Part shown: in pieces, positions 11,172-25,680 of the stretch
How positions within the stretch are numbered: position 1 is the first letter of the stretch
How the letters are laid out: the number at the start of each line of letters is the position of its first letter
Source of the DNA: Deltaproteobacteria bacterium
GTDB taxonomy: Bacteria > Desulfobacterota > Desulfobulbia > Desulfobulbales > Desulfurivibrionaceae
Reading direction: 5' to 3'
Assembly (NCBI GenBank): GCA_021847425.1
Contig: JAJZRF010000021.1
Location: 1 to 44,589 of the forward strand
DNA: 44,589 nt
Program-made: the position numbers and the translations under genes
Notes under the pieces: model-generated
Seen by the model: the letters and a program-made list of their open reading frames with translations, nothing else
The model's database searches: none
What the model was told of the DNA's origin: nothing

Positions 11172-11357
11172 GTTCTGCAACTCCTCTGTTTTGTTACGAT
11201 TCTTCCACATCGGCAAGCGTGCGGCGTCAAGATCGAGGCACAAATCGTTGCGTGCTCCGGGTGGTTGAAACGCAGACAAGCACAGCATAGCACCGAAAGC
11301 CGCGGCGGCAAAGCACAAAGCTGCAAAACGAACGCTGCTCCTGCCTGCGGAAACGGT

Positions 11358-12155
11358 TTACAAGAACTGGCTGTATTTGTGCGGAACCAGGGTAACGCGG
11401 GGCTTCTCGCCCAGGGAATTTTTTTCGACCAGCATGGCGCAGCCATAACAGGCGGCCAGACGCTCGGCAACGAGCACCTCGGAGGGGCGACCCACCATTT
11501 CCACTCTGCCGTTATGGAGCAGCAGCAGACGGTCGCCATAGAGAGACGCCAGATTGAGGTCGTGGGAGACCATGACGACCGTGGTGCCTTTTTCGACGCG
11601 GAACCGCTCCATAAGATCCATGATCTGGATCTGGTGGGCAGGGTCCAGGGAGGCGGTAGGCTCATCGAGCAGGATGATCTCCGGCTGCTGGCAGAGGGCC
11701 CGGGCAATGATCACCCGCTGCCTCTCGCCGCCGCTCAGCTGGTCAAGACGCCGGTGGGCAAGATGGGCCACCTCGGTAAACTGCATGGCCTCCCGGGCAA
11801 AAGCATGGTCTGCTTCCCCTTCAATTTCCAGAAGGCCAAGATGCGGGGCCCGCCCCATGAGAACGGTGTCTGCCACGGTAAAGGGAAAATTCAGGGAGAT
11901 CTGCTGGGGCACCACAGCGAGTCTGGCTGCCAATTGCCGCCTGGTGTAACCGGTCAAGGGTTGGCCGAGGATCTCTATCCCGCCGCCACCAATGGGGAGA
12001 AGATTGGCCAAGGCTTTGAGCAGACTGGTTTTACCGCTGCCGTTTGGCCCGATGATGAGATAGAACTCCCCGCGCCGAACCTGCATGGTGATATCCCGCA
12101 GAACCTGCCTTGTCCCGTAACACAGGTCAAGACCCTTGACGGAAATCACCGGCAT
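11358..12155 (-). CDS. btuD: ABC transporter ATP-binding protein, cobalamin/iron-chelate type (BtuD-like)
   Basis: Cytoplasmic ATPase of 265 residues that energises the BtuC-like permease next to it. Motifs: Walker A IGPNGSGKTSLL (about 34-45), Q-loop VVPQQISLNFPFTV, signature LSGGERQRVIIARAL (about 140-154), Walker B EIILLDEPTASLDP and the switch histidine in VVMVSHDLNLAS. The start at 12155 has GGAGG eight bases upstream and overlaps the end of the permease gene by ten bases, a typical coupled arrangement. FecCD-family transporters carry cobalamin, haem or ferric siderophores. The riboswitch and cbiZ/btuB context favours a corrinoid. Confidence 0.92.
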   Translation of the reverse strand: MPVISVKGLDLCYGTRQVLRDITMQVRRGEFYLIIGPNGSGKTSLLKALANLLPIGGGGIEILGQPLTGYTRRQLAARLAVVPQQISLNFPFTVADTVLMGRAPHLGLLEIEGEADHAFAREAMQFTEVAHLAHRRLDQLSGGERQRVIIARALCQQPEIILLDEPTASLDPAHQIQIMDLMERFRVEKGTTVVMVSHDLNLASLYGDRLLLLHNGRVEMVGRPSEVLVAERLAACYGCAMLVEKNSLGEKPRVTLVPHKYSQFL

Positions 12156-13168
12156 CGGTGCGACCTCCACAACAGGGCAAGGAAAAGCGGCGCCCCGATA
12201 ACGGCGGTGACAATGCCCACCGGCATCTCCCCAGTGCCCGGCAGGGTGCGGGCCAGCAGATCGCAGAGAATCAGATAGGCCCCGCCGCCCAGAATGCTGG
12301 ACGGCACCAGCAGCCGGTGGTCGGGGCCCAAAAACATCCGCAGAATATGGGGGACCACCAAGCCGACAAAACCGACCAGGCCGGACTGACAGACCACGAT
12401 GCTCACCATGAAGGTGGTGGTCACGAGAAGAATCAGGCTCAGCCGCTGCACATTGACCCCAAGCGCGGCGGCGGAGTCGTGCCCGGCCAGCAACAGGTTC
12501 ATGGGCCGGGCCAGGACAAAGATAAGCAGAAAACAAGGGAGCAGGGTCAGGAGAATGGGCAGCCGATCGGTGCTGAACATGGTGAAATCGCCCATGAGCC
12601 AGAAAAGAATCTGGTGCACCTGCGAGGTCTGGCTCATGGAAATGAGAAACATGATAATGGCGCCGCAAAAGGCGTTCATCATGACGCCGCCCAGCAGCAT
12701 GGAATCCCGGCTGATTGCGCTTTGCCCGGAAACCAGCCCGAGAACGAGAAACAGGATGAGCATGCTGCCGGAGAATGCCGCCAGGGGTACGCCGGGAAAG
12801 GGGGAAAGCCCCAGAAGCAGGCCGATGATCGCCCCCACCGCAGAGCCGCCGGAGATGCCGAGGATATACGGCTCAGCCAGGGGATTGCGGAGCAGGGCCT
12901 GAAAAACCAGGCCACCCAGGGCAAGGCTCGCCCCCGCCGTGGCGGCAAGAATCACCCGGGGCAACCGGATCGACCAGACAATCGTGCCGGTGATGGATTG
13001 GCTCCCGCCATTGCCGGAAAAAATCGCCCAAACCTCGCCGAAGCTGCTGCCGGACGGCCCCATACCGATGCCGAGAAACCCGCTTGCCGCAAGGAGAAAG
13101 CCGAACCCCAGGGTGATCAGGACCAGACGGCCGATTAATGATCGCTCACTTGCCACCAGGCCCACCAT
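12146..13168 (-). CDS. btuC: ABC transporter permease of the FecCD family (BtuC-like)
   Basis: Inner-membrane permease of 340 residues with about ten transmembrane helices; a homodimer is expected. Family signatures are visible: WSIRLPRVILAATAGASLAL, GLVFQALLRNPLAEPYILGISGG, and the ATPase-coupling and C-terminal segments GLVGFVGLVVPHILRMFLGPDHR and GEMPVGIVTAVIGAPLFLALL. The ATG at 13168 is chosen because it removes an implausible charged leader; the gene then overlaps the end of btuF by 23 bases. It is tightly packed between the binding protein and the ATPase in the usual F-C-D order. The substrate is assigned to corrinoids from context, not from the permease itself. Confidence 0.92.
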   Translation of the reverse strand: MVGLVASERSLIGRLVLITLGFGFLLAASGFLGIGMGPSGSSFGEVWAIFSGNGGSQSITGTIVWSIRLPRVILAATAGASLALGGLVFQALLRNPLAEPYILGISGGSAVGAIIGLLLGLSPFPGVPLAAFSGSMLILFLVLGLVSGQSAISRDSMLLGGVMMNAFCGAIIMFLISMSQTSQVHQILFWLMGDFTMFSTDRLPILLTLLPCFLLIFVLARPMNLLLAGHDSAAALGVNVQRLSLILLVTTTFMVSIVVCQSGLVGFVGLVVPHILRMFLGPDHRLLVPSSILGGGAYLILCDLLARTLPGTGEMPVGIVTAVIGAPLFLALLWRSHRCR

Positions 13169-14048
13169 AGAGTTCGGGATGGATAATTCCGGCCAGGGCT
13201 TCAAGGCCCTCGACAAGCCGGGGAGTCGGCCGGTCAAAAAGCCCGGCCTCCACCACATACAGCCGGTTCTGCCGCACTGCGGGCAGTTGTTGCCATTGGC
13301 GCCACTGGGCCTTGAGACTTTCCGGGCTGTGCCCTCCGGCCATGGAGGTGATCACGACAATCTCAGGATTCAAAGCCAGGGCCTGTTCCCAGCTGAGGCG
13401 CGGGTACGGAACCGGTCCGGCCCCGAGATTGCGCCCTCCGGCCAGGGTGATCAGCTCATGGGTAAAGGTGTTGGTCCCGGCGGTGATGATCGGCGCGGCG
13501 TCAACCTGGAAAAAGACCCGGGGCCGGGAGGCTGCGGCGCGTGCCAGCCGGCTGACCCTGGCAATGCGCCGCCCCATCTCCCGGGTGAGCGCTTCCGCCG
13601 TTTCCGAGGCTCCCAGCGCCGCCCCCATTCCTTTGATAGCCTCCATGATTCCCTCAAGGTTGCGCGGATCAATGATATAGACCGGGATGCCGAGGGCCTC
13701 GATTTTTTCCACCTCCTGTTTCGGATTGCCTTCCCGGATGCCGAAGCAGATATCCGGTTTCAAGGCGACAATGCGTTCCAGATCGAGCCGCACATAGGAA
13801 CCGATCCTGGGCAGGTTCTTGGCCGCCTCGGGATAATCGCTGTACTGGGTAACGCCCGCCAGCCTTTTCTCCTGGCCCAGGGCGTAGATAATCTCGGTGA
13901 TGCTGGGCGCAAGGGCAACAATCCGCCGCACCCTGGCCGGCATCTTTACCAGGCGGCCGGCCTGGTCGTGCAGCTCCAGGCCAAAGGCTGGCCCGGTCAT
14001 CCATGGCAAGATGCAAAGCAGGAAAAATATCTGTTTTATCCGGTTCAT
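13146..14048 (-). CDS. btuF: Periplasmic corrinoid/siderophore-binding protein (BtuF-like)
   Basis: Substrate-binding protein of 300 residues for the BtuC/BtuD transporter. The ATG at 14048 starts a signal peptide (MNRIKQIFFLLCILPWMTG, ending PAFG). The mature protein opens LELHDQAGRLVKMPARVRRIVALAPSITEIIYALG, the class III binding-protein pattern shared with BtuF, and continues with LAGVTQYSDYPEAAKNLPRIG and LERIVALKPDICFG. A C-terminal lobe follows after a long helix (about 155-185). It overlaps the permease gene by 23 bases. Immediately upstream lies a 15-codon remnant of a tonB 3' end, part of a direct repeat shared with 20824-20898. This is the second BtuF-type domain of the locus, the other being fused to CbiZ. 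Confidence 0.9.
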   Translation of the reverse strand: MNRIKQIFFLLCILPWMTGPAFGLELHDQAGRLVKMPARVRRIVALAPSITEIIYALGQEKRLAGVTQYSDYPEAAKNLPRIGSYVRLDLERIVALKPDICFGIREGNPKQEVEKIEALGIPVYIIDPRNLEGIMEAIKGMGAALGASETAEALTREMGRRIARVSRLARAAASRPRVFFQVDAAPIITAGTNTFTHELITLAGGRNLGAGPVPYPRLSWEQALALNPEIVVITSMAGGHSPESLKAQWRQWQQLPAVRQNRLYVVEAGLFDRPTPRLVEGLEALAGIIHPELYGGPGGK

Positions 14049-14187: not shown

Positions 14188-14982
14188 TCATTTTCCACAT
14201 GTACCTCTATTTTCCAGGACCACATCCAGAGCCGCAGCGATATGATCGGCCAGGATATCGCTTATTTCCGGCAGCATGCCGATACCCTGGTCAACCGCCT
14301 CTACTTCGATGCCTGCCGCCGCAAAAAGCGATTTCCAGGAATCATCATCCACACCCACCAGGTCTTCCTTGAAGTGGACTCCTGCCACCAGCATAAAGGG
14401 AATGAGACACACCTTTTTCAACCCTGCATCAACAACACGGGCGACAATCTCATCGGCCCCTGGATATTCTTCCACACAGCCGACAAAGATCCGTTCTCCA
14501 AAGCGCTCCCGCAACAGATATTGCAGAGCCAGATAACTTGCCCAAATGGGATGATCCGTGCCGTGCCCCGCCAGCACAATGGCCTCGTCCTGCAAGCGGG
14601 AGGCAATCAGGGGAGCCAGCATCGTGCCGATCCGCTGGTAGTCGGCAACCGAACTTAACAGCGGCAGGCCGATGGCAGTACGAATTTTTTCCCCTCCGGT
14701 CTCTTCGATAAGCCGATAAAATTCATGCCCGGCCAGAAAATGCACCGACTGCACCACGGCCCATTCATGTTTCTGTGCTTGCAAGCGGCGCAGGGCTTCA
14801 TAAGGATGCACCGTGTCGATATTCTTGCGTTTCTTGACCCAGTCCTTGACCATCCGGGATGAGTAGGCCCAGACAATTTCATGATCAGGAAAACGCTGCC
14901 TGATCCGTCCATCAATATACGCATAGGTGGACAGAGCTCTGGTTGTGGTGCCAAAGGCTGCCATTACAATGGGGGTATTCAT
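14188..14982 (-). CDS. cbiK: Sirohydrochlorin cobaltochelatase CbiK-type (class II chelatase)
   Basis: ATP-independent chelatase of 264 residues. The CbiK family inserts Co2+, and in sulfate reducers also Fe2+, into sirohydrochlorin for anaerobic B12 or sirohaem synthesis. Family motifs: MAAFGTTTRALSTYAYID at the N terminus, QSVHFLAGHEFYRL (His81, Glu87), VLAGHGTDHPIWASY (His140) and FMLVAGVHFKEDLVGVDDD then SWKSLF (His203). The three positions fit the metal-binding His/Glu/His set of CbiK. The ATG at 14982 follows GGAGAAGG; no signal peptide is present, so it is cytoplasmic as called, unlike the periplasmic CbiK variants reported in Desulfovibrio. It lies 95 bases downstream of the CobN-like gene. 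Metal specificity is not readable from sequence. Confidence 0.9.
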   Translation of the reverse strand: MNTPIVMAAFGTTTRALSTYAYIDGRIRQRFPDHEIVWAYSSRMVKDWVKKRKNIDTVHPYEALRRLQAQKHEWAVVQSVHFLAGHEFYRLIEETGGEKIRTAIGLPLLSSVADYQRIGTMLAPLIASRLQDEAIVLAGHGTDHPIWASYLALQYLLRERFGERIFVGCVEEYPGADEIVARVVDAGLKKVCLIPFMLVAGVHFKEDLVGVDDDSWKSLFAAAGIEVEAVDQGIGMLPEISDILADHIAAALDVVLENRGTCGK

Positions 14983-15077: not shown

Positions 15078-18000
15078 TTATCGTCTTTTGAAACCAAGGG
15101 CTACCAGTCCGATTGCCAGAATAAACCCCAAAATGAATATCCACGGAATAGGGGCTGAAAATGCGGCGCCTGCGGGTGCGCCGACCTCCTGCATTTCGAG
15201 CCCTTCCACAGATTTGCTTCCCGCCTTTGCCTTAGCCGCACCCTTTCCGTCAGGAGCGCGGCTGTTCAGGCCTTTGTTTTGGAGAATGGACTTTGCCGAG
15301 GTTCCTTTTTGTTGCCGCCGCGCCGGGGAATATTGCCCATGTTCGGTTTTTTTCATGGTATCCAAAGCCTTCATGAACCCCTGGGCCAAAGGACGCAGTC
15401 CAGGGACCGACAGGAGCGTACTGACAGTGTAGCTGGTGAGCTGGGGGTTGTTGCAGGTGTGGTCGCAACAGGCCAGCCCCACTTCCTGGACGCTTTCGGC
15501 GTACTCTTCCGCCAGGACCTCCACTACCTTTTTGTTCGGCTTCCAGTATCCCTTGCGTACCGTCTCCAGCATCCGGGCCGCCACCGATTGGTAGGCCCAC
15601 ATGTTTTTCGCCTTCCGGAACAGCTCCTTGATTCCCAGCCCGTATTTGTCCTGAATATACGTTTCGTACATCTCCTGCCACTTGGCGCCATCCACTGCTT
15701 CCGGCACCGTGACCTGCCAGCCCCACAGATGTTCCGTCACCTTGTCGACAAATCGGGCACCGGAGTACTCTTCCTTCATCATCGCCTTGATCCACTCCGG
15801 GTTCAGGTAGCGGGAACGCATCTCCATGCCCATCACCTTTTCAAGGCTCTCCTGTTTGGGCTGTTTTGGGTTGCTCATGGTTGTGACGTACACCTCGGGG
15901 CTCTTGCCGTCCACGGCACGGATTGCCATGACCGTCCCCCCCAGGTACTGGAAGAAATCATCATTATCAAGGGTTGCGATCAAATTACCGGAACGGCTGT
16001 GAACCGCCATTTTGCTGCCGGACAGGGCATTTTTAAACAGCGTAACACCGAGATCCTCCCCTTTGTACTCCGTCTTCTCGCCCCAAAAACCCTGACCAAA
16101 GGGATGCCCCAAGCGCTTGAAGTAAACATCAACCACCTGTTTTTCATTATGCCAGGAGTTGGAGGCAACGATCACCTTGTCTATGCCGGTGCCGTAGGAT
16201 CCGGGCTGCTCGGTAAATATCCGCACCGATGCAAGCCTCTGGGCCTTCTCCTCCGACATCCCTTTCTCCATCAACATCCTTTTCGTACTCTTGACATTGG
16301 CGCTGATCAGGTTGTCCCCTTCATCCTGATCCCTGGCAACAGTCACGGCGCTATCCAGCAACGCCATCAGGTTGGAAAAAAGATCCCGGTACAACCCGGA
16401 AGGGACCATGGTCACGTCAATCCGGCCTCGACCCAGTTCCCGCCGCGGGATTGCTTCCACCCCGGTCACCCGTCCCCGTTCGTCCCATTTGGGTCGCACC
16501 CCCATGAGATACATGACCTGAGACTCCATCACCCCTTCGTTACGAATGGTCTCGGTGCCCCAGAGGTTGAAGGTCAGCTTATCAGGATAGCTCCCGTGGC
16601 GCTTCTTGTACCCCTCTATCAACTCTTTGGCCAGTTTCTCCCCTGTGGCATAGGTAATGGAAGACGGTATCCTGGAGGGATCGAATGCGTAAAAATTCTT
16701 CCCGGTTGGCAGCGATTCCGGATTCCTGATCGGATCATTCCCTATGCCGGAAGGGATATACTTGCCTGCAAGGGCTGCCACAAACGAATCCAGCTCACAT
16801 GGGCCGCTCTTGATGATATCAGCCTCCAGGGCAGCCAACCGTTTAGCCCGTTCCTCCGCTGTCAGTCCCTTTTCGATGGAGAGAATCGCCTCGGCAGTGC
16901 TTCTGCAATATCGGTCATCAGGGGATTTCCCGAAGGTATGCAACCCGAAGGGGGTGATCTTTTCCCCGATCTCCCTGATGTAGTCATCCAACTCGTCCGC
17001 CTGTTCCGGGGTAGCAATGGCGGCAAGTTTCAGGTCGGTCAAAATCCCCTCCTTGCGGGCCAGGTCATTGATCTCCTCCAGTTTGCCGATTGCCAATTGA
17101 GAAGATTTCTCCCGCGCACCGTTGTAGTCGCTGATCAGGGAAGACAGCTCTTTCAACTCAGGGTTCATCCCTGCCTTGTCAAAGGGAGGGGTCATGTAAT
17201 CGATCACCACCCCCATCCCGCGCCTCTTGGCCTGCAACCCTTCTCCCACATCATCCACGATATAGGGATAAATGTTGGGCAGATCCTGAATCAGCAGTTC
17301 CGGCGGATCTTCCGCGGTAAAGCCAACTTCCTTGCCGGACAGCCATTCATGGGTGCCATGGGTGCCGATATGGGCCACGGCATCAGCCTTGAACTCATGT
17401 TTCAACCAGAGATAGAAGGCGATGTACTGATGGTGGGGTGCAATGGTGGTGTCGTGGTAGAGTTTTTTGACATCCTGCTCCCAGCCCCGCGATGGTTGGG
17501 GGGTGAAAAGAATATTTCCATATCTTAACGCAGGAATAACAAGATATTTCGTCCCGTTCGCACTCCGCCAAACCATAATGCGGCTCTCTTCCGGCTTGCC
17601 CCAGTCATGGAGCACCGCTCTCCTGAAACCATCCGGCAGGGTGGCGAACCAGCGCTTGTATGTCTCCATCGGGATCAGCACCGCCTGACCGCTGCGGGCC
17701 ATGCGATCTATCGCCGCCGGAGCCCAATTGCCGATGTTGCGGCCATGGCTGCGAATATCCTCAAACAGGCGATCCCTGGTAATCTCACCGCTCCCGGTGT
17801 CGTACCCTTCAGCCTGTAGTCTCGTGATGATTTCATAGAGACTTTCCGGGAGCACGTTCAGGTAACAAGCGCCGATATTCTGCTTACCCGGAGGATAGTT
17901 GTAGTAGATCAAGGCGATTTTTTTCAGGCTGTTGGGCTTTTGCTGCAAGGCCAGCCAACGTTTGATCCGTTCCGTCAAACGGTTGATCCGTTCCGGGATC

Positions 18001-19091
18001 GGCCTCACCTCCAGATATTCCAGCCCGGTCGCCGGATCAACGGCCTGCTCCTTGGAGGCCACCACGGTGGGCTGAATGACTCCCGCCAGTTCCGGCAGAC
18101 CGACTTGAAAACCACGCTCAAAGGTATCCAACCCCAGCGGCGATCGCTCCCATTCCTCGCGCGACTGGGAATTGAGGGTAATGGCATCAATCACCGGCAC
18201 CCCCAGACGGCTCAGAATCGGGATAGCCCGTTGAGGAACGACACCCACCTTGAGGGAGATGCCGATCACGGCTTGAACCCTGGGCCTGCCAGCCCCATCG
18301 AACATGAACCGCTCCACGGCCAGTTCCGAGGGATAGCCGTAAACAGGCAATACATTCAACCCCGCCCGCTCCAGAGCATCGATCATGGTGTCCACGAGGG
18401 CCATATCCCCGTTATCCAGCGAGGTTTTGTGAAATACGATGCCGATCCAAGGGCCTGGCCGCTCTTGATGGAGTTGCCGATACTCCTCAAAATCGGTCAC
18501 ACTGCGTCGCCCCTGCTTCAGATAAATGCCTGTCTGGGGGACACTCACCGGTTTCCGGTAGTCCAGCTTCAGTCCGCAGTCCCGCTGCAAAAGAAAACGC
18601 AGCATCTGGGTGATGTTCTCAAGTCCGTTTTCCCGCTGATAGGCGTTTACGATTTCATCATTAATCAGCCCCAGTTCCCGCTGTTCCGTGCCGTATGAGC
18701 CGCCGACGGCATAGACCCTGACCCCGCTTCGGATCATCCTTTGGATGTAAGGCATCAGGTTCGCCACCATGCGGCTATCCATAATATTCAGGAGAGCGAT
18801 CCCCTTTGCGCCGGGGGGGAGCCTGCCTGCCGTCCCCTCGGCCAGCACCTTGTCCGCCGTTCTGCCGGACACCACTTGAAAGTGAACCTCATCAACCAAT
18901 TCCGGCTGAGAGTGGCGGATAGCCTTTATCGCATCAACCGCCATCTTCGCATTGAAATCCCCCATGATGAGATTGACATAGGTCTGGCCGGCCCAGGCTG
19001 ACGATGCCATCAACAACAACCAGACAACGCTCGTCGCCAACAGACAGAACAAGGGCTGAAACAATTTTTCTCCCTTTCTATTCAGGAACAT
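15078..19091 (-). CDS. Secreted, membrane-anchored CobN/HmuS-like chelatase
   Basis: CobN/BchH-family protein of 1337 residues. Unlike cytoplasmic CobN it has an N-terminal signal peptide (hydrophobic stretch LFCLLATSVVWLLLMASSAWA, about 14-34). Near the C terminus it has a low-complexity linker, a transmembrane helix (PWIFILGFILAIGLVALGF) and a positive tail KRR, so the large domain should face the periplasm. CobN hallmarks include IGTHGTHEWLSGKEVGF (about 573-590), FNLWGTETIRNEGVMESQV and MGVRPKWDERGRV. A Cys/His cluster LACCDHTCNNPQLTSY lies near 1210. Class I chelatases need ATP-driven CobS/CobT or ChlI/ChlD partners; none is encoded here. Instead it overlaps a DUF2149 gene by 14 bases and follows an ExbB-like gene. 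The closest analogue I know is the HmuS-type CobN homologue of Bacteroidota haem-uptake operons. Corrinoid or haem as substrate is inference; context favours corrinoid. Confidence 0.85.
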   Translation of the reverse strand: MFLNRKGEKLFQPLFCLLATSVVWLLLMASSAWAGQTYVNLIMGDFNAKMAVDAIKAIRHSQPELVDEVHFQVVSGRTADKVLAEGTAGRLPPGAKGIALLNIMDSRMVANLMPYIQRMIRSGVRVYAVGGSYGTEQRELGLINDEIVNAYQRENGLENITQMLRFLLQRDCGLKLDYRKPVSVPQTGIYLKQGRRSVTDFEEYRQLHQERPGPWIGIVFHKTSLDNGDMALVDTMIDALERAGLNVLPVYGYPSELAVERFMFDGAGRPRVQAVIGISLKVGVVPQRAIPILSRLGVPVIDAITLNSQSREEWERSPLGLDTFERGFQVGLPELAGVIQPTVVASKEQAVDPATGLEYLEVRPIPERINRLTERIKRWLALQQKPNSLKKIALIYYNYPPGKQNIGACYLNVLPESLYEIITRLQAEGYDTGSGEITRDRLFEDIRSHGRNIGNWAPAAIDRMARSGQAVLIPMETYKRWFATLPDGFRRAVLHDWGKPEESRIMVWRSANGTKYLVIPALRYGNILFTPQPSRGWEQDVKKLYHDTTIAPHHQYIAFYLWLKHEFKADAVAHIGTHGTHEWLSGKEVGFTAEDPPELLIQDLPNIYPYIVDDVGEGLQAKRRGMGVVIDYMTPPFDKAGMNPELKELSSLISDYNGAREKSSQLAIGKLEEINDLARKEGILTDLKLAAIATPEQADELDDYIREIGEKITPFGLHTFGKSPDDRYCRSTAEAILSIEKGLTAEERAKRLAALEADIIKSGPCELDSFVAALAGKYIPSGIGNDPIRNPESLPTGKNFYAFDPSRIPSSITYATGEKLAKELIEGYKKRHGSYPDKLTFNLWGTETIRNEGVMESQVMYLMGVRPKWDERGRVTGVEAIPRRELGRGRIDVTMVPSGLYRDLFSNLMALLDSAVTVARDQDEGDNLISANVKSTKRMLMEKGMSEEKAQRLASVRIFTEQPGSYGTGIDKVIVASNSWHNEKQVVDVYFKRLGHPFGQGFWGEKTEYKGEDLGVTLFKNALSGSKMAVHSRSGNLIATLDNDDFFQYLGGTVMAIRAVDGKSPEVYVTTMSNPKQPKQESLEKVMGMEMRSRYLNPEWIKAMMKEEYSGARFVDKVTEHLWGWQVTVPEAVDGAKWQEMYETYIQDKYGLGIKELFRKAKNMWAYQSVAARMLETVRKGYWKPNKKVVEVLAEEYAESVQEVGLACCDHTCNNPQLTSYTVSTLLSVPGLRPLAQGFMKALDTMKKTEHGQYSPARRQQKGTSAKSILQNKGLNSRAPDGKGAAKAKAGSKSVEGLEMQEVGAPAGAAFSAPIPWIFILGFILAIGLVALGFKRR

Positions 19092-19416
19092 AGATCACTC
19101 TTCCGTCCTTCAGCCGATATGCCGTACCCATGCGTTCACCCTCCCCGGAGAGGCGCCTGTCGGTTACTTTTTGCACCTTGATCTCTTTTCCTTTTTTGGT
19201 GATGACCTCAAGCTTGCCATCGGCAGCTTTTTTGGTGATGGTAACCTCTGACTTGGGGTCCATCAGGTCCAACATGTTGTACGCCATGAACAGGGCGATC
19301 ATTATGCTGACAATAAATACCACGCTCACGTCAAACAGATTGGCGACCCCGGAAATCGGGTCTTCCAACGGTTCGTCATATTTATTAAAACGGTTGCGCC
19401 GTTTAAGATAACGCAT
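19078..19416 (-). CDS. DUF2149 protein, candidate ExbD/TolR-like partner
   Basis: Protein of 112 residues: a short basic cytoplasmic N terminus (MRYLKRRNRFNKYDE), one transmembrane helix (ANLFDVSVVFIVSIMIALFM, about 27-46) and a periplasmic tail of about 65 residues with several short strands. The pattern NLFDVSVVFIVSIMI resembles the ExbD/TolR helix, which carries a proton-responsive aspartate in PLVDVMLVLLIIFM. Size, topology and gene order (ExbB-like gene immediately upstream, overlapping by 14 bases) also match an ExbB-ExbD pair. GAGGAG precedes the ATG. I therefore propose it couples the ExbB-like channel to the CobN-like protein. The family name is from memory; the ExbD role is inference from motif and context. 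Confidence 0.75.
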   Translation of the reverse strand: MRYLKRRNRFNKYDEPLEDPISGVANLFDVSVVFIVSIMIALFMAYNMLDLMDPKSEVTITKKAADGKLEVITKKGKEIKVQKVTDRRLSGEGERMGTAYRLKDGRVIYVPE

Positions 19417-19999
19417 CGCCGCTCTCCTCTTTCGCCAGAGGGGTGAGGCCGTTCATACGCCGGCGCAGCAGCAGTTCGGTCAGGTACTCCATCTCCCGCA
19501 TGTCGGCCCTCACCCACTTCTCCTTCACCAGCGAGAGCAGGTAGGCTATGATACTGCATGCCAACCCCACCACCACGGTGGTAAAGGCTGTTACCATGCT
19601 GCCCGCCATCTTGGGCATGTCCCCCTGGGCCAGGGAGGAGAGGGAGACACCCATGGGGATCAGGGTGCCCATCAACCCCAAGGCCGGGCCTACCCGAATC
19701 ACAAAACGGATTAAGTCCAGCGATTTAATCTGAACCAACTCGCTGCTTTGCAGCAACCGCTCCACGACGATATCCAGGTTGACCTTCTCCGTTGCCGTTG
19801 CGAGGGCTGTGGTCAGCTCTTTCCGATAGCGGGCCAGAGGGGTGGAGACTCCCTGGCGCCGATCCAGGAATTCCCGCAAAAAAGAGCCAAGATAAAGCAA
19901 TACCCAGAAGGTGAGCAGCACCAACCCTGCCACCACAGGAAAAAGCATCACCGATGAAATCAAATAAAGAAAGCTTTCAAGCCCTGCAAGAACCTGCAT
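19403..19999 (-). CDS. MotA/TolQ/ExbB-family proton channel protein
   Basis: Inner-membrane protein of 198 residues with three transmembrane helices: SSVMLFPVVAGLVLLTFWVL (about 15-35), the VIRVGPALGLMGTLIPMG segment (about 105-125) and MVTAFTTVVVGLACSIIAYLL (about 140-165). The GPALGLMGT and AFTTVVVGLA motifs are the ExbB/TolQ proton-channel core. ATG 19999 is preferred over an upstream start because GGAGG lies ten bases before it; it starts directly after the DUF2162 stop (20001-20003). ExbB-type rings use proton flow to drive periplasmic work through an ExbD-type subunit. tonB is nearby, so this could instead energise TonB/BtuB. Its tight overlap with DUF2149 and cobN favours a role with the chelatase. 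Confidence 0.88.
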   Translation of the reverse strand: MQVLAGLESFLYLISSVMLFPVVAGLVLLTFWVLLYLGSFLREFLDRRQGVSTPLARYRKELTTALATATEKVNLDIVVERLLQSSELVQIKSLDLIRFVIRVGPALGLMGTLIPMGVSLSSLAQGDMPKMAGSMVTAFTTVVVGLACSIIAYLLSLVKEKWVRADMREMEYLTELLLRRRMNGLTPLAKEESGDALS

Positions 20000-20000
20000 G

Positions 20001-20702
20001 TCATATCCTCCTGCGCCGTTTCCCGGCAAAAAAACCAAGCAACAGCAGAGCCGGCAGGACCGTCAAAACGCCCATGCCAGCTCTGCTGCACTCCGACAGA
20101 GCGTTTTCCATGATAAATGAGCGGTACATCTCCTGCGCCTCTTTAATTTTGGCAGGCAGAAAAAGGGAGGCGATAAAATAAAGACCGATCACGATCATCG
20201 CAAGCCCCAGCGACGCTTCCGAATGTTGGCCGGTCCGACGACGACGAGCCACCAGCCACACCCCCAACGCCAGCACGCCAAAGACCAGCCCCAATCCCAG
20301 CCCCACCAGCGGGGCCGGCAAGCTGATCGCTTTGAGCGCAGCCCAGGTTGAAAAGCAGATGGCGGTCAGACAGACCGGGCAGGGGATAATCAGCAAAAGC
20401 CTGGCCCCGGCCCCATGATGTTCACGTGTTCGCCTGCTGATGATGTACATGCCCCATGCGATCAGACCTGTTGCCAAGAGACTGTGCAACAACGGCCCGT
20501 TGCGCAACAGCGGCACAAGCCCCCGGGACAGTTGCTCTGCCGCCAGGGCTACTACCAAAAAGAGGGCCAGATACCCGGCCAGGGTGGCGATTATTCCTTT
20601 TAACCCTACCTTTCCGCAGGCAAGACCCAACCCCACCTTAAGGGCAAAAATCCCCAGGCTGAAAAGCATGCCGCCAATCCAGAGCAGGATGTTCATATCC
20701 AT
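20001..20702 (-). CDS. DUF2162-type polytopic membrane protein
   Basis: Protein of 233 residues with about six hydrophobic helices (for example ILLWIGGMLFSLGIFALKVGL, GIIATLAGYLALFLVVALAAE, and PLVGLGLGLVFGVLALGVWLV) and a basic Arg-rich C terminus. A motif LLIIPCPVCLTAICFSTWAA contains a Cys-Pro-x-Cys-like pair inside a membrane segment. I recognise the DUF2162 family, annotated as a predicted transporter and seen beside ExbB-like, DUF2149 and CobN-like genes in other genomes. No biochemical function is established to my knowledge. Candidate roles are metal or tetrapyrrole export, or supplying electrons or metal to the chelatase. GAGGA precedes the ATG. It heads the four-gene module, 150 bases after the tonB stop. 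Confidence 0.75.
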   Translation of the reverse strand: MDMNILLWIGGMLFSLGIFALKVGLGLACGKVGLKGIIATLAGYLALFLVVALAAEQLSRGLVPLLRNGPLLHSLLATGLIAWGMYIISRRTREHHGAGARLLLIIPCPVCLTAICFSTWAALKAISLPAPLVGLGLGLVFGVLALGVWLVARRRRTGQHSEASLGLAMIVIGLYFIASLFLPAKIKEAQEMYRSFIMENALSECSRAGMGVLTVLPALLLLGFFAGKRRRRI

Positions 20703-20854: not shown

Positions 20855-20898
20855 TCCTCTACCCCCGAAGTTCAAATCGCACCGGCACCCTGACCCGC
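20824..20898. repeat. 75-bp direct repeat, copy B (tonB-end/btuF-start junction)
   Basis: Ungapped partner of 14021-14095 with 64/75 identical bases. It covers the last codons of intact tonB and the start of the btuF stub. A CCATGG follows in both copies after a short length difference. The rest of 20703-20858 holds no further gene or terminator that I can support. Confidence 0.85.
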
Positions 20899-21719
20899 AT
20901 GACAACCGGTCGGCCGTTGCGCAGGCCGGGCGCAAACCGCCAGCCGCGCACCGCATCAAGCGCTGCCGCATCAAGAAGTTCAGAGCCGCTGCCGGAGGCC
21001 ACCTTTACATCCGTCACCATTCCCGAGGCGGAGACAACCACCTCCAGCAGCACAACCCCCTGTTTCCCCATCCGCCTGGCAAGGCGCGGATAGTGGAGCG
21101 GCGGATTCATTGCATACAGGGGGCGGGCCGACACTTCGGCGGTCTCACCCCGGCCGACTTCCTGCCCTTCTCCGCTTCCCGGACCCTGAACCGCCTGCGA
21201 TGGAATGTATCCCCCACCGCCAGCCGAGGTCTCCGCACCGCCAGCCGCAGGCTCACCACCGCCGGTCACCGGCTTTGCCAAAAAATTTTCCTCCCCTGCC
21301 ACCCTTCCGATTTTCTGTAGGATTTCCTGGGCGGAATGTTCCCTGCCGACATCTTTTCTCGCCCTGGGCGCCGGAGATACGCTATTTCTCCCGGCTGCCC
21401 TTCTTTCGGGCAGGACGGATTTTCTTCCCGGCGACAGGACCGGCTTCTGGTTGCCCGCCTCTTTCTCCCCCGCCGGCCCGTAACCCAGGCTGACGGCGAT
21501 GAACGAAGGCGGATCCGGTCCCAGGGTTCGGACCGTTGCACCGCTCAGCCAGAAGCCCAGAAACAAAACTGCGGCATGGAGAAGTACCGCCAAAACCGCA
21601 GCCAGGCAATACAGGCGCTGTAGCGGTGCCTTGGGCGCATCCCCCGCCGCCCCGGCAATATATTCCGGAATCGCAACCGCCGGTCTCACTTCAAGGCCCG
21701 CCGCCCGGTTTTCCCGCAC
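20859..21719 (-). CDS. tonB: TonB energy-transducing protein
   Basis: Protein of 286 residues that spans the periplasm and drives BtuB. After a 35-residue cytoplasmic N terminus comes one transmembrane helix (LAAVLAVLLHAAVLFLGFWL), then a Gly/Pro/Arg/Glu-rich periplasmic linker. The C-terminal TonB fold reads PLHYPRLARRMGKQGVVLLE, then VVVSASGMVTDVKVASGSGS, LLDAAALDAVRGWRFAPGL and VRVPVRFELRG. The helix contains the conserved-type histidine of the TonB membrane segment (SHLS-like position, here LLHAAV). The start is probably GTG 21719, overlapping the BtuF-CbiZ gene by 29 bases. No canonical ExbD accompanies it; the ExbB-like/DUF2149 pair downstream could serve it or the CobN-like protein. 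Confidence 0.92.
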   Translation of the reverse strand: MRENRAAGLEVRPAVAIPEYIAGAAGDAPKAPLQRLYCLAAVLAVLLHAAVLFLGFWLSGATVRTLGPDPPSFIAVSLGYGPAGEKEAGNQKPVLSPGRKSVLPERRAAGRNSVSPAPRARKDVGREHSAQEILQKIGRVAGEENFLAKPVTGGGEPAAGGAETSAGGGGYIPSQAVQGPGSGEGQEVGRGETAEVSARPLYAMNPPLHYPRLARRMGKQGVVLLEVVVSASGMVTDVKVASGSGSELLDAAALDAVRGWRFAPGLRNGRPVVMRVRVPVRFELRG

Positions 21720-23685
21720 ACACCCCGTTTACCAGAGACTCAAAGGCCAGGGCGATAACCGGCGGTAACTGCCCACCGGCAAACCTGTGCGGCCACGGCT
21801 CGATGGCATGGCCCGCCAGCGCGCTGGACACCGCCCTGGACCACATACCATACCCCCGCAGATCAGTGAGGCTGCCACCCTGCTCCGCATCGCTTACGGC
21901 AAAGGAGCCCAGCATGAAGCCCGCGTACTGAGGTTGCAGGAGAACATTTTCCAGAGCACCGACCAATTGGGCCTTGTCAAGGGAACAATCTTCCACCTCC
22001 GTCCCGGGAAAAAGCCCCCAGAGGTCTATCTTCCGTTCCTTGAGCCGGGCAAAAACTGAACGGTTCGCGGTGATCCCGTTCTGTTTGGCTATTGCCTCCC
22101 TAACCCCGTCATACACCGCCCCAGCAATGAGCTCCCCCATTTTCGTGTGCCCGCCGCTGTTGTCAATGGCCGGACCCTCACCCTGCACCACCAGAATATT
22201 GTCCGTGCCGGTTCCGGTCGCCTGCCGTTGGGGCGTATAACTGCTGCGGATGTCCAGATCGGCGAGGGCCGCGCTTTTCGCCTCGGTGGCGCTGATAACC
22301 GCCCTGGCCATGGCCTGCTGGCTGAGCCGCGTGTTGGTCAGCAGGATAATATTGATGGTGCCCGGCTCATAATAGTTGCCCCTATCCACGGACATGCGCA
22401 TGGCGTTTGTGGCAACCCCGGCGGTAACCAGGGCGTAGACCTCCATGTCGCGGAATCCCTTGCGGCTGACCACCAGATTATCCATATCCGCACCGGTAAA
22501 AAGCAGGCTGGTTTCGCCCGGATTCCTGCCCAGCACCGCGCAGCTCCTTTTCTTGAGACCGGCCACGCTGCTGCTCTCTGCCAGCCCCCAGGCCGGGGGA
22601 GGATAATAATGATTCCCCACCGAAGTGATGCCAGTCCGCTCTCCTTCCAGGGTGGACAACACCCGTTGCGGGGAGGCAAAATCAATCACCAGGGTTTTAT
22701 CGATGAAATCACGGACTCGGCTCTCCACTACCCTGGCCTGCCGCACATAGCCGAGGGCAAGGGCCACCTCGCGGGAGCCGATGTTGTGGTCCGGGGTGAG
22801 CTGCCGGGCCGGATCGGAAAACTCCTTTTCATAGATGCGGGCGGAAAGGGCGGAAACGAAAGCGCCGATATGTGCCCCGGCCCTACAGGTAAGATCGCAC
22901 GGAAATGAAAATACTCGTTTGTTCTTAACCGCATCAATGGTCTGCAACTCTGTATTGGCCAGCACCGCGGCTTGGGCCTTGTCCCCACAGACATAGATGC
23001 ACTGCGGGTTAAATCTTTTCAGCTCGTCGACGCTTACGGTTATGGCATTGCCATTCCGGCCGAAGTGGGGAGGCACGCCTCCCGCCGCCCGGATAAAGTC
23101 GTTTTGAAAGGAATCATCCCCCGGCACCATAAGCTGCTTGGGGCTCATGAGCCGCATCACCCGCTGGCGTTCCTTTGCCGGGATCCCGGCTGTTTTTTTG
23201 GCAATGACCGCCAGCTCCGCCCGGTTCTTCTCAATGAGCTTCTGCGCTGCGTCCCTCTTGGCGAAAATCACCCCCAACGCCTCAATACGTGCAAGTGCCT
23301 GGTCAATGGAATGCACCGGCGGGTCGAGCAGAAGACGGTCCGCCTGAAAATGCTCCCTGACTTTTTTCTGCAGATCGGCGGCAATGATCAAATCAGGATC
23401 AAGCGCATCGATCCGTTCGATGGAGGGGGCGAAAAAACCGCCGACCACCGTCTTGTCGGCAACCTCGGCCGGATAGGTGCTATGGTAGGTCACCCCGGCC
23501 AGACCATCGCCCGCGCCAATGGCAAAAATAATCTCCGTAACCGCCGGGACCAGGCACACCACCCGGTGAGGGGGATGGGCAAAGTGCATCTGCGCCGCCC
23601 CTGCCGGGGTCAAGCTCGCCGCCGACACCTCTGCCGCCATCAACACCGCGAAAAAGAGGGAAAAAAATTTCAATAATAGCTTCAT
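21691..23685 (-). CDS. Exported BtuF-CbiZ fusion: corrinoid-binding domain plus adenosylcobinamide amidohydrolase
   Basis: Protein of 664 residues. It starts with a signal peptide (MKLLLKFFSLFFAVLMAAEVSA). A BtuF-like domain follows (about 35-295): HRVVCLVPAVTEIIFAIGAG, GLAGVTYHSTYPAEV, IDALDPDLIIA and MVPGDDSFQNDFIRAAGG. A CbiZ domain (about 330-535) has SLLFTGADMDNLVVSRKGF, YALVTAGVATNAMRMSVDRG, NIILLTNTRLSQQAMARAV and the signature DNILVVQGEGP then GGHTKMGELIAGAVYDGV. A tail of about 125 residues is unassigned. CbiZ cleaves the amide bond of adenosylcobinamide or pseudocobalamin-type corrinoids so they can be rebuilt with another lower ligand. The single exported chain implies binding and cleavage in the periplasm. 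ATG 23685 follows GGCGGAG; an upstream TTG is less likely. It lies 60 bases after btuB. Confidence 0.9.
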   Translation of the reverse strand: MKLLLKFFSLFFAVLMAAEVSAASLTPAGAAQMHFAHPPHRVVCLVPAVTEIIFAIGAGDGLAGVTYHSTYPAEVADKTVVGGFFAPSIERIDALDPDLIIAADLQKKVREHFQADRLLLDPPVHSIDQALARIEALGVIFAKRDAAQKLIEKNRAELAVIAKKTAGIPAKERQRVMRLMSPKQLMVPGDDSFQNDFIRAAGGVPPHFGRNGNAITVSVDELKRFNPQCIYVCGDKAQAAVLANTELQTIDAVKNKRVFSFPCDLTCRAGAHIGAFVSALSARIYEKEFSDPARQLTPDHNIGSREVALALGYVRQARVVESRVRDFIDKTLVIDFASPQRVLSTLEGERTGITSVGNHYYPPPAWGLAESSSVAGLKKRSCAVLGRNPGETSLLFTGADMDNLVVSRKGFRDMEVYALVTAGVATNAMRMSVDRGNYYEPGTINIILLTNTRLSQQAMARAVISATEAKSAALADLDIRSSYTPQRQATGTGTDNILVVQGEGPAIDNSGGHTKMGELIAGAVYDGVREAIAKQNGITANRSVFARLKERKIDLWGLFPGTEVEDCSLDKAQLVGALENVLLQPQYAGFMLGSFAVSDAEQGGSLTDLRGYGMWSRAVSSALAGHAIEPWPHRFAGGQLPPVIALAFESLVNGVCAGKPGGGP

Positions 23686-23745: not shown

Positions 23746-25680
23746 TCAGAAATGAAATTTCACCCCGCCATAGACCGAAAGACCCGGCGTGGCATAGCTC
23801 CAGGCCTCTTCATATTGCTCGTTCAAGAGGTTGTCGATCCGGCCATACAGATCAAGATGCGGAGTCAGCGCGTAGGTACCGGCCACATTGACCACCGTGT
23901 ACGGATCCAGGCTGTAGACCCGATTGCCATACATATCCCTGGCAGAGGAAATTTCATCCCGTTCCCCCACCCAGAGCAGGTCCACATTGCCCCGCAGCTT
24001 TTCGCTGAAACGGTAGGCCGCGGAAAGGGATGCCTTGTTCATTGGCCGGCGGGTCAGGCGAGCCCCAGAAGCATCCTTGGCATCCGTATAGGTATAGGCA
24101 AGCTTCAGATCCAGGGCTGACAGCGGCTTGAAGCGGACAAAGGATTCCACGCCCTGGGTGGTACTCTCTCCCGTGGCCTGGGCGTATTGCCAGGTGTCAA
24201 AATCATACTGAATCAGATTGTCATAGTTTGTTTGAAAATAGGTGGCGCCGATGGTCAGCTTCTCGCCAAGCAGTTCCTGCTCAATCCCCACATCTCCCCC
24301 CTTGCTCTTCTCTGCCTGCAACGCCGAATTGCCATAGCCCGGGGCATAGAGCTCAAAAAGAGAAGGAGCACGAAAACCGGTGCCGTAGTTGCCCTTAAGC
24401 GTGGTGCCGGTGGTCGCGAACACATAGGAGGGCGAAATCCGATAGGTGGCTGCGCTGCCGAACCGGTCATGATCGTCAAGCCGCGCCCCTGCCACGACAT
24501 TGAAGCTGTCGCCCAGGGATATCTGGTCCTGCAGCCAGGAACTGGCCACATTGGCCGACTGCCTGTTGATGACGGTAAAACCGCCGGAAGAATCCATCTG
24601 CTCGTCAACATAGGAAACGCCCAGGGTAACGGTGTTCGCCTTGAAAGCGGCCACACTCCCCTGCCACCCCACCTCCGAGCTTTTGCCGTTATAATGCGAG
24701 AGGCCGGAATCCAGGGAATAGTCCCGGTTTCTGTCGGTTTGCTGCCAGTACAGATTTGAGTCGAACCGCCCCTTCAGCAACCGGTTATGGATATTGAATT
24801 TCGACAGCCAATCCGTGCTGTCGACGTACTTGTCCTTTGGATTGCCGACCTTGTTGTCCTGCAGATAACCGTTGGCCCAGCTGTCGAGGTCTACCTCCGA
24901 ATCCATGTATCGGGCCATGGCGGAGACATCGAAATCAGGGGTCAGCTTATAGCCCAATTTTCCGGAAAAGGTGGAATTCTGCCAGCCGTCATCTTCCGAG
25001 GTAGCGCCGCCCGCATGGGGAATGCGGTCATTCCTGTTGTCAGCCGTGGAAAAACCCTGGGATACGGTGCGGGCAAGGTCCAGGGCATAGTTGAACCGCT
25101 CCAGGGCACCGCTGGCCCCGCCGTAGGTTTTCCTGGTGCCGTAGGAACCGGCCTCCGCCCCCAGATAATAGTGCGGGGCTCCGCCGCCCTGCTTGGTGAT
25201 GATATTGATGACGCCTGCCGTGGCGTTGCTGCCGTACAGCACGCTCATGGGGCCGCGGACAATCTCGATGCGTTCGATGTTGTCCGTGGTAAGGTTGGCG
25301 AGATTCGCGCCGCGATTGGCATCGGACGGATCATTGAACATGACCCCATCCACCAGCACCAGGGTGTTCTTGGAATCAGCCCCCCGGATAAAGACCGAGG
25401 TGGTGGTCCCCAAGCCCCCATTGGCCACCACATCCAGGCCGGGCACCCCCTTCAGCACCTCCTCCACCGTCAGCTGCTGTTTGGCCTCGATCTCCTGCGC
25501 GGTTATCACCGTCACCGTGCTGCCGCCGATTTGGGCAAGCGATGCCGGGGTACGGGTCGCCGTCACCACCACCTCATCCATGGCGATCTGCCGGTTGTCG
25601 GCTGCCTCCTGCCCTGCAGTGGCGAGACCGGGAACGGCCAGCAGAACCAAGGCCCAAGCTGGGTAAAGTTTTTTCCTCAT
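23746..25680 (-). CDS. btuB: TonB-dependent outer-membrane cobalamin receptor
   Basis: Outer-membrane receptor of 644 residues for corrinoid uptake. Signal peptide MRKKLYPAWALVLLAVPGLATA is followed by a TonB box (DEVVVTATRTPA, about 35-46). The plug domain has VEEVLKGVPGLDVVANGG, FIRGADSKNTLVLVDGVMFND and IERIEIVRGPMSVLYGSNA, then the GVINIITKQG end. The 22-strand barrel closes with YGRIDNLLNEQYEE and a terminal Phe (VKFHF). GGAGGAG precedes the ATG and lies inside the end of a 37-residue ORF whose TGA overlaps the btuB ATG. The cobalamin riboswitch upstream supports cobalamin over iron chelates as substrate. btuF-cbiZ and tonB follow in the same direction. Confidence 0.95.
   Translation of the reverse strand: MRKKLYPAWALVLLAVPGLATAGQEAADNRQIAMDEVVVTATRTPASLAQIGGSTVTVITAQEIEAKQQLTVEEVLKGVPGLDVVANGGLGTTTSVFIRGADSKNTLVLVDGVMFNDPSDANRGANLANLTTDNIERIEIVRGPMSVLYGSNATAGVINIITKQGGGAPHYYLGAEAGSYGTRKTYGGASGALERFNYALDLARTVSQGFSTADNRNDRIPHAGGATSEDDGWQNSTFSGKLGYKLTPDFDVSAMARYMDSEVDLDSWANGYLQDNKVGNPKDKYVDSTDWLSKFNIHNRLLKGRFDSNLYWQQTDRNRDYSLDSGLSHYNGKSSEVGWQGSVAAFKANTVTLGVSYVDEQMDSSGGFTVINRQSANVASSWLQDQISLGDSFNVVAGARLDDHDRFGSAATYRISPSYVFATTGTTLKGNYGTGFRAPSLFELYAPGYGNSALQAEKSKGGDVGIEQELLGEKLTIGATYFQTNYDNLIQYDFDTWQYAQATGESTTQGVESFVRFKPLSALDLKLAYTYTDAKDASGARLTRRPMNKASLSAAYRFSEKLRGNVDLLWVGERDEISSARDMYGNRVYSLDPYTVVNVAGTYALTPHLDLYGRIDNLLNEQYEEAWSYATPGLSVYGGVKFHF

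Follow-up and report, generated by a model that had tools for sequence, protein, structure and literature searches.

Gene cluster

The window analysed here is a 44,589-nucleotide stretch of Desulfobacterota DNA, positions 1 to 44,589 of contig JAJZRF010000021.1 of assembly GCA_021847425.1, forward strand. On its minus strand lie four intact, tightly packed open reading frames (ORFs) for a DUF2162 membrane protein, an ExbB/TolQ-type channel subunit, a DUF2149 protein and a CobN-like class I chelatase, and this analysis concerns the possibility that the ExbB-DUF2149 pair uses the proton-motive force (PMF) to power the chelatase outside the cytoplasm. The initial annotation, made from the sequence alone, had described these four genes, and ORF coordinates and Pfam matches confirm them. 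It had cut the set too short at both ends. The four genes appear to belong to an 11-gene operon in the order BtuB, exported BtuF-CbiZ, TonB, DUF2162, ExbB, DUF2149, CobN-like, CbiK, BtuF, BtuC and BtuD, headed by a cobalamin riboswitch. The TonB gene had been overlooked, and it is the main support for a rival explanation in which ExbB and DUF2149 energize BtuB.

The core of the operon begins with the DUF2162 multi-helix membrane protein (20001..20702, minus strand like all features of the operon; Pfam E 2e-53). The ExbB/TolQ-type proton channel subunit follows (19403..19999; MotA_ExbB E 5e-11), with a likelier start at ATG 19999 than at TTG 20038. DUF2149, a single-helix protein with an ExbD-like layout (19078..19416; Pfam E 3e-33), overlaps the ExbB ORF by 14 bases and, by another 14, that of the predicted exported, membrane-anchored CobN-like chelatase (15078..19091; CobN-Mg_chel 1041 bits).

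The riboswitch at the operon head (RF00174, 25926..26109) matches the full model, positions 1-189, with 123.2 bits in cmscan against a gathering threshold of 31.5. Behind it, a BtuB-like TonB-dependent receptor (23746..25680) has the Pfam Plug and barrel domains; its best NCBIfam match, TIGR01779 TonB-B12, reaches 321.7 bits, under the cut-off of 599.7. The next gene encodes the BtuF-CbiZ fusion (21691..23685; Peripla_BP_2 E 4e-22, CbiZ PF01955 E 2e-53). Its start is placed at ATG 23685, the listed ORF running from TTG 23700, and its N-terminus, MKLLLKFFSLFFAVLMAAEVSA, is signal-peptide-like. By its domains the protein is a periplasmic binding protein joined to a predicted adenosylcobinamide amidohydrolase. 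The TonB-like energy transducer (20859..21719; TonB_C E 2e-25), directly upstream of DUF2162, is the sole TonB_C match in the source genome, which is 81% complete.

Downstream of the chelatase gene are a CbiK-type cobalt chelatase (14188..14982; CbiK E 7e-56; ATG 14982, listed ORF from GTG 15048), a BtuF-like periplasmic binding protein (13146..14048; Peripla_BP_2 E 1e-33; ATG 14048 proposed, listed ORF from 14225), a BtuC-like permease (12146..13168; FecCD E 4e-83; ATG 13168 proposed) and a BtuD-like ABC ATPase (11358..12155; ABC_tran E 1e-32; ATG 12155 proposed). No signal peptide was seen at the N-terminus of the window CbiK, unlike the CbiK proteins encoded near the module in five other loci (L057, L058, L129, L137 and L215), whose N-termini are signal-peptide-like. 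An ankyrin-repeat protein is encoded on the same strand directly downstream of BtuD (10464-11318).

Co-inheritance of ExbB-DUF2149 with CobN

Profile searches covered 395 genomes of the window's phylum, and the resulting lists were compared by eye. The phylum is given as Desulfobacterota on the strength of six of its loci, which duplicate named deltaproteobacterial records. DUF2149 was detected in 48 genomes at E <= 0.001 (42 over the cut-off), DUF2162 in 41 (36 over the cut-off) and CobN in 113. CobN was present in 40 of the 42 genomes with DUF2149 over the cut-off versus 73 of the 353 others (Fisher p 3e-22, without correction for kinship). In both exceptions (G072, locus L214, and G136, locus L213), the DUF2149 match is interrupted by stops and the whole genome lacks a CobN match. 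These broken genes look as if the motor decays after the loss of CobN. CobN is present in all 36 genomes with DUF2162 over the cut-off, and 34 of them, all except G066 and G144, also have DUF2149 over the cut-off. Six genomes had weak DUF2149 matches below the cut-off: Pfam identifies those of G047 and G255 as canonical ExbDs, phmmer those of G389 and G365 as ExbD-like, and the remaining two are in G009 and G089. In a sample of the phylum Bacteroidota, DUF2149 was found in three of 296 genomes, each time with CobN no more than about 6 kb away on its contig; CobN itself occurs in 80 of the 296. An unbroken, over-cut-off DUF2149 without CobN was not found in the samples of the two phyla (40 and 3 genomes with DUF2149), and a DUF2149 scan of viral contigs retrieved no relative.

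We then assembled 124 loci, comprising the window, 40 of the 44 other over-cut-off places, 80 collection loci and nine of ten plasmid matches, less six duplicates. The collection loci are the best 80 of 435 relatives and are biased to window-like sequences. Left out of the count were G072 and G136 (broken), G043 (contig end, CobN beside it) and G012 (locus L217, with the full set). CobN was found in 112 of the 124, and the remaining 12 all break off less than 6 kb from DUF2149 on one side or both. All 75 complete loci, in which DUF2149 is flanked by 6 kb or more in both directions, contain ExbB and a CobN-like gene. DUF2162 is present in 46 of them, CbiZ in 29, CbiK in 17, TonB in 22, a canonical ExbD in 20, and TonB and ExbD together in 17. 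In 72 of the 112 loci, the open frames of DUF2149 and CobN adjoin directly, no more than 200 bases apart. Since the arrangement recurs in every complete locus, it is not due to chance. One genome (G214) carries two complete copies of the module (L042 and L043).

Predicted export and anchoring, and active site, of the CobN-like protein

The CobN-like protein begins with MFLNRKGEKLFQPLFCLLATSVVWLLLMASSAWA and ends with ...IPWIFILGFILAIGLVALGFKRR. A signal peptide with an AWA site is predicted at its start, and a hydrophobic segment at its C-terminus. Such a C-terminal anchor is found in all 101 DUF2149-linked CobNs whose frame runs to its stop codon (hydropathy maximum 1.44-3.36) and in none of 29 CobNs without DUF2149 (maximum at most 0.56). 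N-terminal hydropathy overlaps between the two groups, from 0.84 in linked proteins (the lowest value being that of a shortened ORF) and up to 1.96 in controls, and our claim of a signal peptide is therefore confined to the window protein. The initial annotation had proposed that the CobN-like domain is exported; at the level of prediction, the signal peptide of the window protein and the group-wide anchor bear this out.

The proteins were aligned after five partial sequences had been dropped (n=137), and eight duplicate or extra sequences were removed before tree building. In the FastTree phylogeny (129 sequences, 1213 columns), all 100 DUF2149-linked CobNs form one clade with a support of 0.96, and none of the 29 unlinked controls falls inside it. 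Three proteins from hmu loci (L223, L228 and L230), which serve as stand-ins for HmuS, branch first within the clade, and the remaining 97 group at 0.94. The controls all come from the window's phylum; neither an aerobic CobST-linked CobN nor the HmuS of solved structure is in the tree.

The closest solved relative of the window protein is HmuS (9d26, E 1e-149), followed by CobN (9uk9, E 2e-134) and 4zhj (E 2e-127), all class I chelatases. H578 in its HIGTHGTHEW motif is the chelatase histidine of the superfamily (His-538 in HmuS), and this histidine and the glutamate four residues on are kept in 136 of the 137 aligned proteins, that of the window included. The sole exception, L124, is linked to ExbB-DUF2149 and lacks both, so a linked member can lose its catalytic residues. 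L130 has an odd domain V motif in common with L124, both being divergent CobN-like proteins, and L122 and L133 each carry a second, more distant CobN-like frame.

L124 and the richness of the operon in transport genes fit a rival explanation in which the CobN-like protein is a PMF-cycled receptor or transport part: its head and neck would bind the corrinoid, and the motor would hand it to DUF2162 or BtuFCD with the metal unchanged. Conservation of H578 of HxGTHG and the glutamate in all other aligned proteins speaks against such a role, as does BtuFCD, which already provides inner-membrane transport, and we regard it as improbable.

Comparison with the published features of HmuS gave a mixed result. 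The HFG(T/A)HG motif of HmuS is nearly matched by HIGTHG, with the catalytic histidine present, and a methionine aligns with the haem ligand Met-79. The HGR position (His-254) reads ISLK, the LSLDHxxEFMGG motif is missing, and HmuS residues 688-890, the Met-rich insertion in domain IV, have no counterpart. D1045 and Q1048 stand where HmuS has His-1209 and Glu-1212. The histidine of the second HmuS motif occurs in only four linked proteins, the three of the hmu loci and that of an Azospirillum plasmid (L223, L228, L230 and L226, respectively). We assign the window protein, from its sequence, to an HmuS/BtuS clade in a broad sense defined here: anchored, linked to ExbB-DUF2149 and grouping with the hmu-locus CobN-like proteins. 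Its clade membership notwithstanding, the missing HGR, second motif and Met-rich insertion mean that it is not an HmuS by the published definition, as given in the available passages of PMC12583661. All eight annotated plasmid records name the gene simply cobaltochelatase subunit CobN.

The domain V motif of the window protein, LDNDDFFQYLGG, resembles that of CobN 9uk9 (LDSDDYYQFEGG) and not SLDHVYEFMGG of HmuS. This likeness, together with the fact that CobN is an ATP-driven inserter, would suit an enzyme that runs forwards, using PMF instead of ATP to insert cobalt, in the periplasm, into scavenged corrins that carry no metal or the wrong one. The operon offers no evident source of metal-free corrin, and HmuS, of the same clade via L223, L228 and L230, removes metal according to the passages of PMC12583661 available to us. 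Forward insertion is accordingly rated as distinctly improbable.

AAA+ partners

Cytoplasmic class I chelatases are driven by AAA+ ATPases. No CobS or CobT is encoded near the CobN-like gene of the window. A single ChlI-like protein was found in the window (36385-37908); it lies on the other strand about 17 kb away and has three ChlI-type Pfam domains, a build that we take to be that of the ComM/YifB family. All ChlI/ChlD matches in the window come from this ORF, which is easily mistaken for the ATPase of the system and was rejected as a partner. No real ChlI/ChlD was found in the 75 complete loci either, the single match being this same ComM-like gene. The absence of CobS/CobT recorded in the initial annotation therefore holds, and the neighbourhood survey that it had called for gives ExbB-DUF2149 and a CobN-like gene without a real ChlI/ChlD in every complete locus.

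A second CobN is encoded on another contig of the same genome. It is cut by the contig end, and two further genes follow it, one of AAA+-VWA build like ChlD and one for an AAA+ protein resembling ChlI, so that one genome holds both the AAA+ version and the ExbB version. Among unlinked CobN controls, that of the window's own genome included, ChlI/ChlD is found near 11 of 21. The lack of an AAA+ neighbour alone consequently does not define the group; the anchor and the clade do.

The ChlI/ChlD-like pair elsewhere in the genome raises the alternative of an ordinary cytoplasmic cobaltochelatase that borrows these ATPases in trans. We consider this scarcely credible. The CobNST type is a soluble cytoplasmic protein with an AAA+ partner, and the window protein has no such partner at its locus and carries a predicted signal peptide and a C-terminal anchor. 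The ATPases in question adjoin their own CobN, and in the available text of PMC3403914 Trichlorobacter (Geobacter) lovleyi is reported without any CobS/CobT homologues.

ExbB, DUF2149 and the question of TonB

Among 21 aligned ExbB proteins, GTLIPMG is invariant or nearly so, T125 and A151, F152 and G158 of AFTTTVVGL are invariant, and T153 is kept in at least 90%. DUF2149 has an aspartate, Asp29, near the start of its helix that is invariant in 21/21 aligned proteins. Its model is one long helix (residues 20-45) of low confidence, with a predicted local distance difference test score (pLDDT) of 65, and the fold was kept out of the structure search because this value was judged too low. ExbD/TolR (PF02472) is not among the Pfam matches of the 21 DUF2149 members, and two canonical ExbDs match the DUF2149 profile PF09919 weakly (E 4e-5 and 1e-4, under its cut-off).

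These two matches and the ExbD layout of DUF2149 bear on whom the motor serves. ExbB-DUF2149 may be the ordinary energizer of TonB and BtuB, with DUF2149 as a stand-in for ExbD, while the CobN-like protein works beside it without PMF and with a reductant, as HmuS does. The TonB gene of the operon fits this explanation. So do the assignment of HmuU/HmuV as ExbB/ExbD in the available parts of PMC10100974 and PMC12583661 and the activity of HmuS in lysates described in the latter. We nevertheless think it unlikely, given the 20 complete loci in which a separate canonical ExbD stands beside the DUF2149 set, 17 of them with TonB. In T. lovleyi pGLOV01, TonB-dependent transporter (TBDT)-DUF2162-ExbB-DUF2149-CobN is followed by ExbB-ExbD-TonB-TBDT, and Propionivibrio locus L094 is another plain case. 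It is also at odds with the two phylum samples, in which every unbroken, over-cut-off DUF2149 is accompanied by CobN, and with the archaea. Methanosarcina acetivorans, which we take to have no outer membrane, matches CobN, DUF2149, MotA_ExbB and DUF2162, and the control genomes that match ExbD or TonB_C do not include it. The passages seen of PMC9425974 likewise report DUF2149 in 41 genomes of the methano7 lineage, as a membrane protein linked to TolQ, and those of PMC10846266 report two BtuS proteins in M. barkeri, where the whole B. fragilis operon is lacking. The archaeal argument consists of family matches in one control genome and these published passages; of the M. jannaschii and M. acetivorans controls, only one is over the cut-off for DUF2162.

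We favour, with some confidence, the explanation that the motor is reserved for the CobN-like protein and does not serve TonB, because of the 75/75 co-occurrence, the separate ExbD in 20 loci and the archaeon without an outer membrane.

DUF2162

DUF2162 contains an invariant PCPxC motif, and C108, P109, C111, H73 and W83 are invariant in 28/28 aligned proteins. In the model (pLDDT 83) the motif lies at a helix break. We propose that the protein is a metal permease or a thiol conduit. A known fold was sought with Foldseek and rejected, with nothing at E <= 0.001 (VIT1 0.21, ZIP 0.44, CcdA 1.9). No solved relative was detected by sequence, and no second Pfam family was matched by more than three of the 28 members. 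DUF2162 was not detected in the Betaproteobacteria and Sphingobacteria loci examined. The hmu loci hold HmuT in the DUF2162 slot, with no Pfam match in two of them, no PCPxC in three and no detected similarity. As judged from sequence features, the contents of this slot suggest a metal permease or thiol carrier.

On a Runella plasmid (L225:5284-13318), a receptor, a protein with weak DsbD_2/NicO matches, ExbB, DUF2149 and CobN lie inside hypABF...CDE. The arrangement suggests a nickel version of the set. Locus L062 was also considered as a nickel locus and was not counted, as four of the genes beside it encode phosphate (Pst) transport.

Cobalamin context

Of the 29 Desulfobacterota loci scanned, 22 have a cobalamin riboswitch in front of the operon and on its strand, as read by eye from the coordinates. 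Of the seven misses, three (L037, L047 and L061) are cut by contig ends and four (L042, L045, L062 and L064) are not. The riboswitch also precedes the operon in the T. lovleyi, Propionivibrio, Azospira and Brocadia loci, and the same scan found none in the hmu (L223), Runella (L225) and Sphingobacterium (L109) loci. On the Azospirillum plasmid (L226:4611-16569), CobN-ExbB-DUF2149 are followed by a cobalamin riboswitch behind DUF2149, a binding protein, a permease and a receptor; NikR is encoded there on the other strand.

CbiZ is frequently exported by prediction: 35 of the 41 CbiZ frames in the loci examined have a hydrophobic, signal-peptide-like N-terminal segment and are fused to a BtuF-like domain or stand alone. 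In L150 (1224-7358), BtuF, CbiZ and CobN form one open frame of 2045 residues. In L217 (8167-10500), which is not among the 35, DUF2149 is followed by BtuF-like and CbiZ domains in one open frame of 778 residues, a candidate motor-enzyme fusion. Either fusion could be an assembly error. Together with the exported CbiZ, they tie the motor and the CobN-like protein to corrinoids handled outside the cytoplasm.

Proposed function

The operon as a whole may encode a B12-controlled machine that processes corrinoids in the periplasm. BtuB would import a cobamide into the periplasm and exported CbiZ would strip off its nucleotide loop. The anchored CobN-like protein would then act on the metal centre, most likely taking cobalt out, as HmuS takes iron from haem. 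The ExbB-DUF2149 stator, encoded in the same operon and placed in the same membrane, would power domain movements or product release by proton flow, standing in for the AAA+ motors CobS/CobT or ChlI/ChlD of class I chelatases in the cytoplasm. The freed metal, or else electrons, would cross the inner membrane by way of DUF2162, and CbiK would make use of the cobalt. For this complete pathway, cobalt removal included, we put the likelihood slightly short of even; we infer that motor and enzyme are physically coupled, that PMF is used, that the metal is cobalt, that it is removed and not inserted, and what DUF2162 does.

Several points weigh against this proposal. Cobalt removal from a corrin is chemically very hard, and a B12-needing cell gains nothing obvious by destroying B12. 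L124 has a motor partner and no catalytic pair. The window operon has TonB and no ordinary ExbBD beside it. Compared by hhalign, the DUF2149 and ExbD profiles match weakly (probability 4%, E 0.01), with Asp29 placed on the ExbD aspartate, and M. jannaschii matches DUF2162 and CobN and not DUF2149. According to the available parts of PMC12583661, HmuS takes the metal from haem with NADH and in the absence of a PMF, both as purified protein and in lysed membranes: it needs NADH and not ATP, lysed membranes convert most of the haem, and purified HmuS performs only 1-2 turnovers. The parts of PMC10100974 at hand include operons with T, U and V and no detected S (981 and 337 Bacteroidetes species, cblaster patterns); sequence thresholds may lie behind these.

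If the window protein is HmuS-like, the task of the motor could be to load substrate, release product or sustain turnover, and not to break bonds. The idea in the initial annotation that ExbB/DUF2149 replaces the ATPase gains from the co-inheritance with CobN and the lack of an AAA+ partner; a strict need for PMF does not fit HmuS, which works without it.

More generally, the ExbB-DUF2149 proton stator could be a third power source for class I chelatases, driving an exported branch beside the CobST and ChlID rings. Stator and exported chelatase would together make up a machine of general use outside the cytoplasm, which extracts metals from metallo-tetrapyrroles and supplies a metal permease in the DUF2162/HmuT slot: iron in hmu, cobalt in the B12-riboswitch operons, possibly nickel in Runella and Azospirillum, and also in archaea. 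In the window, cobamides would be broken down for their cobalt. We offer this wider scheme tentatively and hold it to be rather doubtful as a whole. To our knowledge, ExbB-type motors work in outer-membrane transport, cell-envelope integrity, flagella, gliding or defence, and driving a metal-chelatase would, if true, be a new kind of work and would allow the enzyme class to run without ATP. It would bear on how HmuS-type enzymes are powered and turn over outside the cytoplasm, turnover limits and the electron source being left open in the published work as far as seen. Periplasmic dismantling or remodelling of cobamides, by exported CbiZ and then the chelatase, would also change the reading of B12 sharing in anaerobic communities.

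Comparison with known systems

The class to which the window protein belongs, HmuS/BtuS, is already known. The literature searched, with most subscription journals outside its coverage, yielded no published proposal of ExbB-DUF2149 as a chelatase motor, and the reading in which the motor replaces the ATPase is without precedent there; nor did the parts seen describe exported CbiZ or the lack of AAA+ neighbours across loci.

The likeness to the HmuS-type haem operons of Bacteroidota (hmuYRSTUV; PMC12583661 and PMC13227078, both seen in part), which the initial annotation had pointed to, proved real: the two systems share one anchored CobN-like clade, the same ExbB-DUF2149 partners and HxGTHG with the catalytic histidine. 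Unlike hmu, the window has DUF2162 with PCPxC in the place of HmuT, a cobalamin riboswitch, CbiZ and CbiK, and no HmuY was seen; its chelatase, unlike HmuS, lacks the Met-rich insertion and HGR. The accessible text of PMC13227078 states that HmuT, HmuU and HmuV may affect HmuS activity, and that of PMC10100974 describes hmu-like operons that carry a cobalamin riboswitch and may have a cobalamin role. The window protein also resembles the BtuS proteins (BtuS1 and BtuS2 of B. fragilis), which are CobN-like, exported, apart from CobN and ChlH, and proposed for metalloporphyrin salvage. BtuS is named in PMC6460266, which in the portion available cites Rodionov 2003.

By sequence the window protein is a class I chelatase like CobN, which works with CobS/CobT, and ChlH, which works with ChlI/ChlD. 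In contrast to it, these are cytoplasmic and ATP-driven, according to the passages seen of PMC13227078 and PMC7689651, and the 29 unlinked CobNs have no C-terminal anchor. As in ExbB-ExbD-TonB and TolQ-TolR, an ExbB-family channel is paired with a single-helix partner bearing an aspartate, with the difference that DUF2149 takes the place of ExbD. A close relative of the module is the CobN cluster of T. lovleyi pSZ77/pGLOV01, which has a riboswitch and a DUF2149 91% identical to that of the window. In the available text of PMC3403914, this cluster is described, the missing CobS/CobT are noted, the role of CobN is left open, and the Exb/TonB genes are read as outer-membrane transport.

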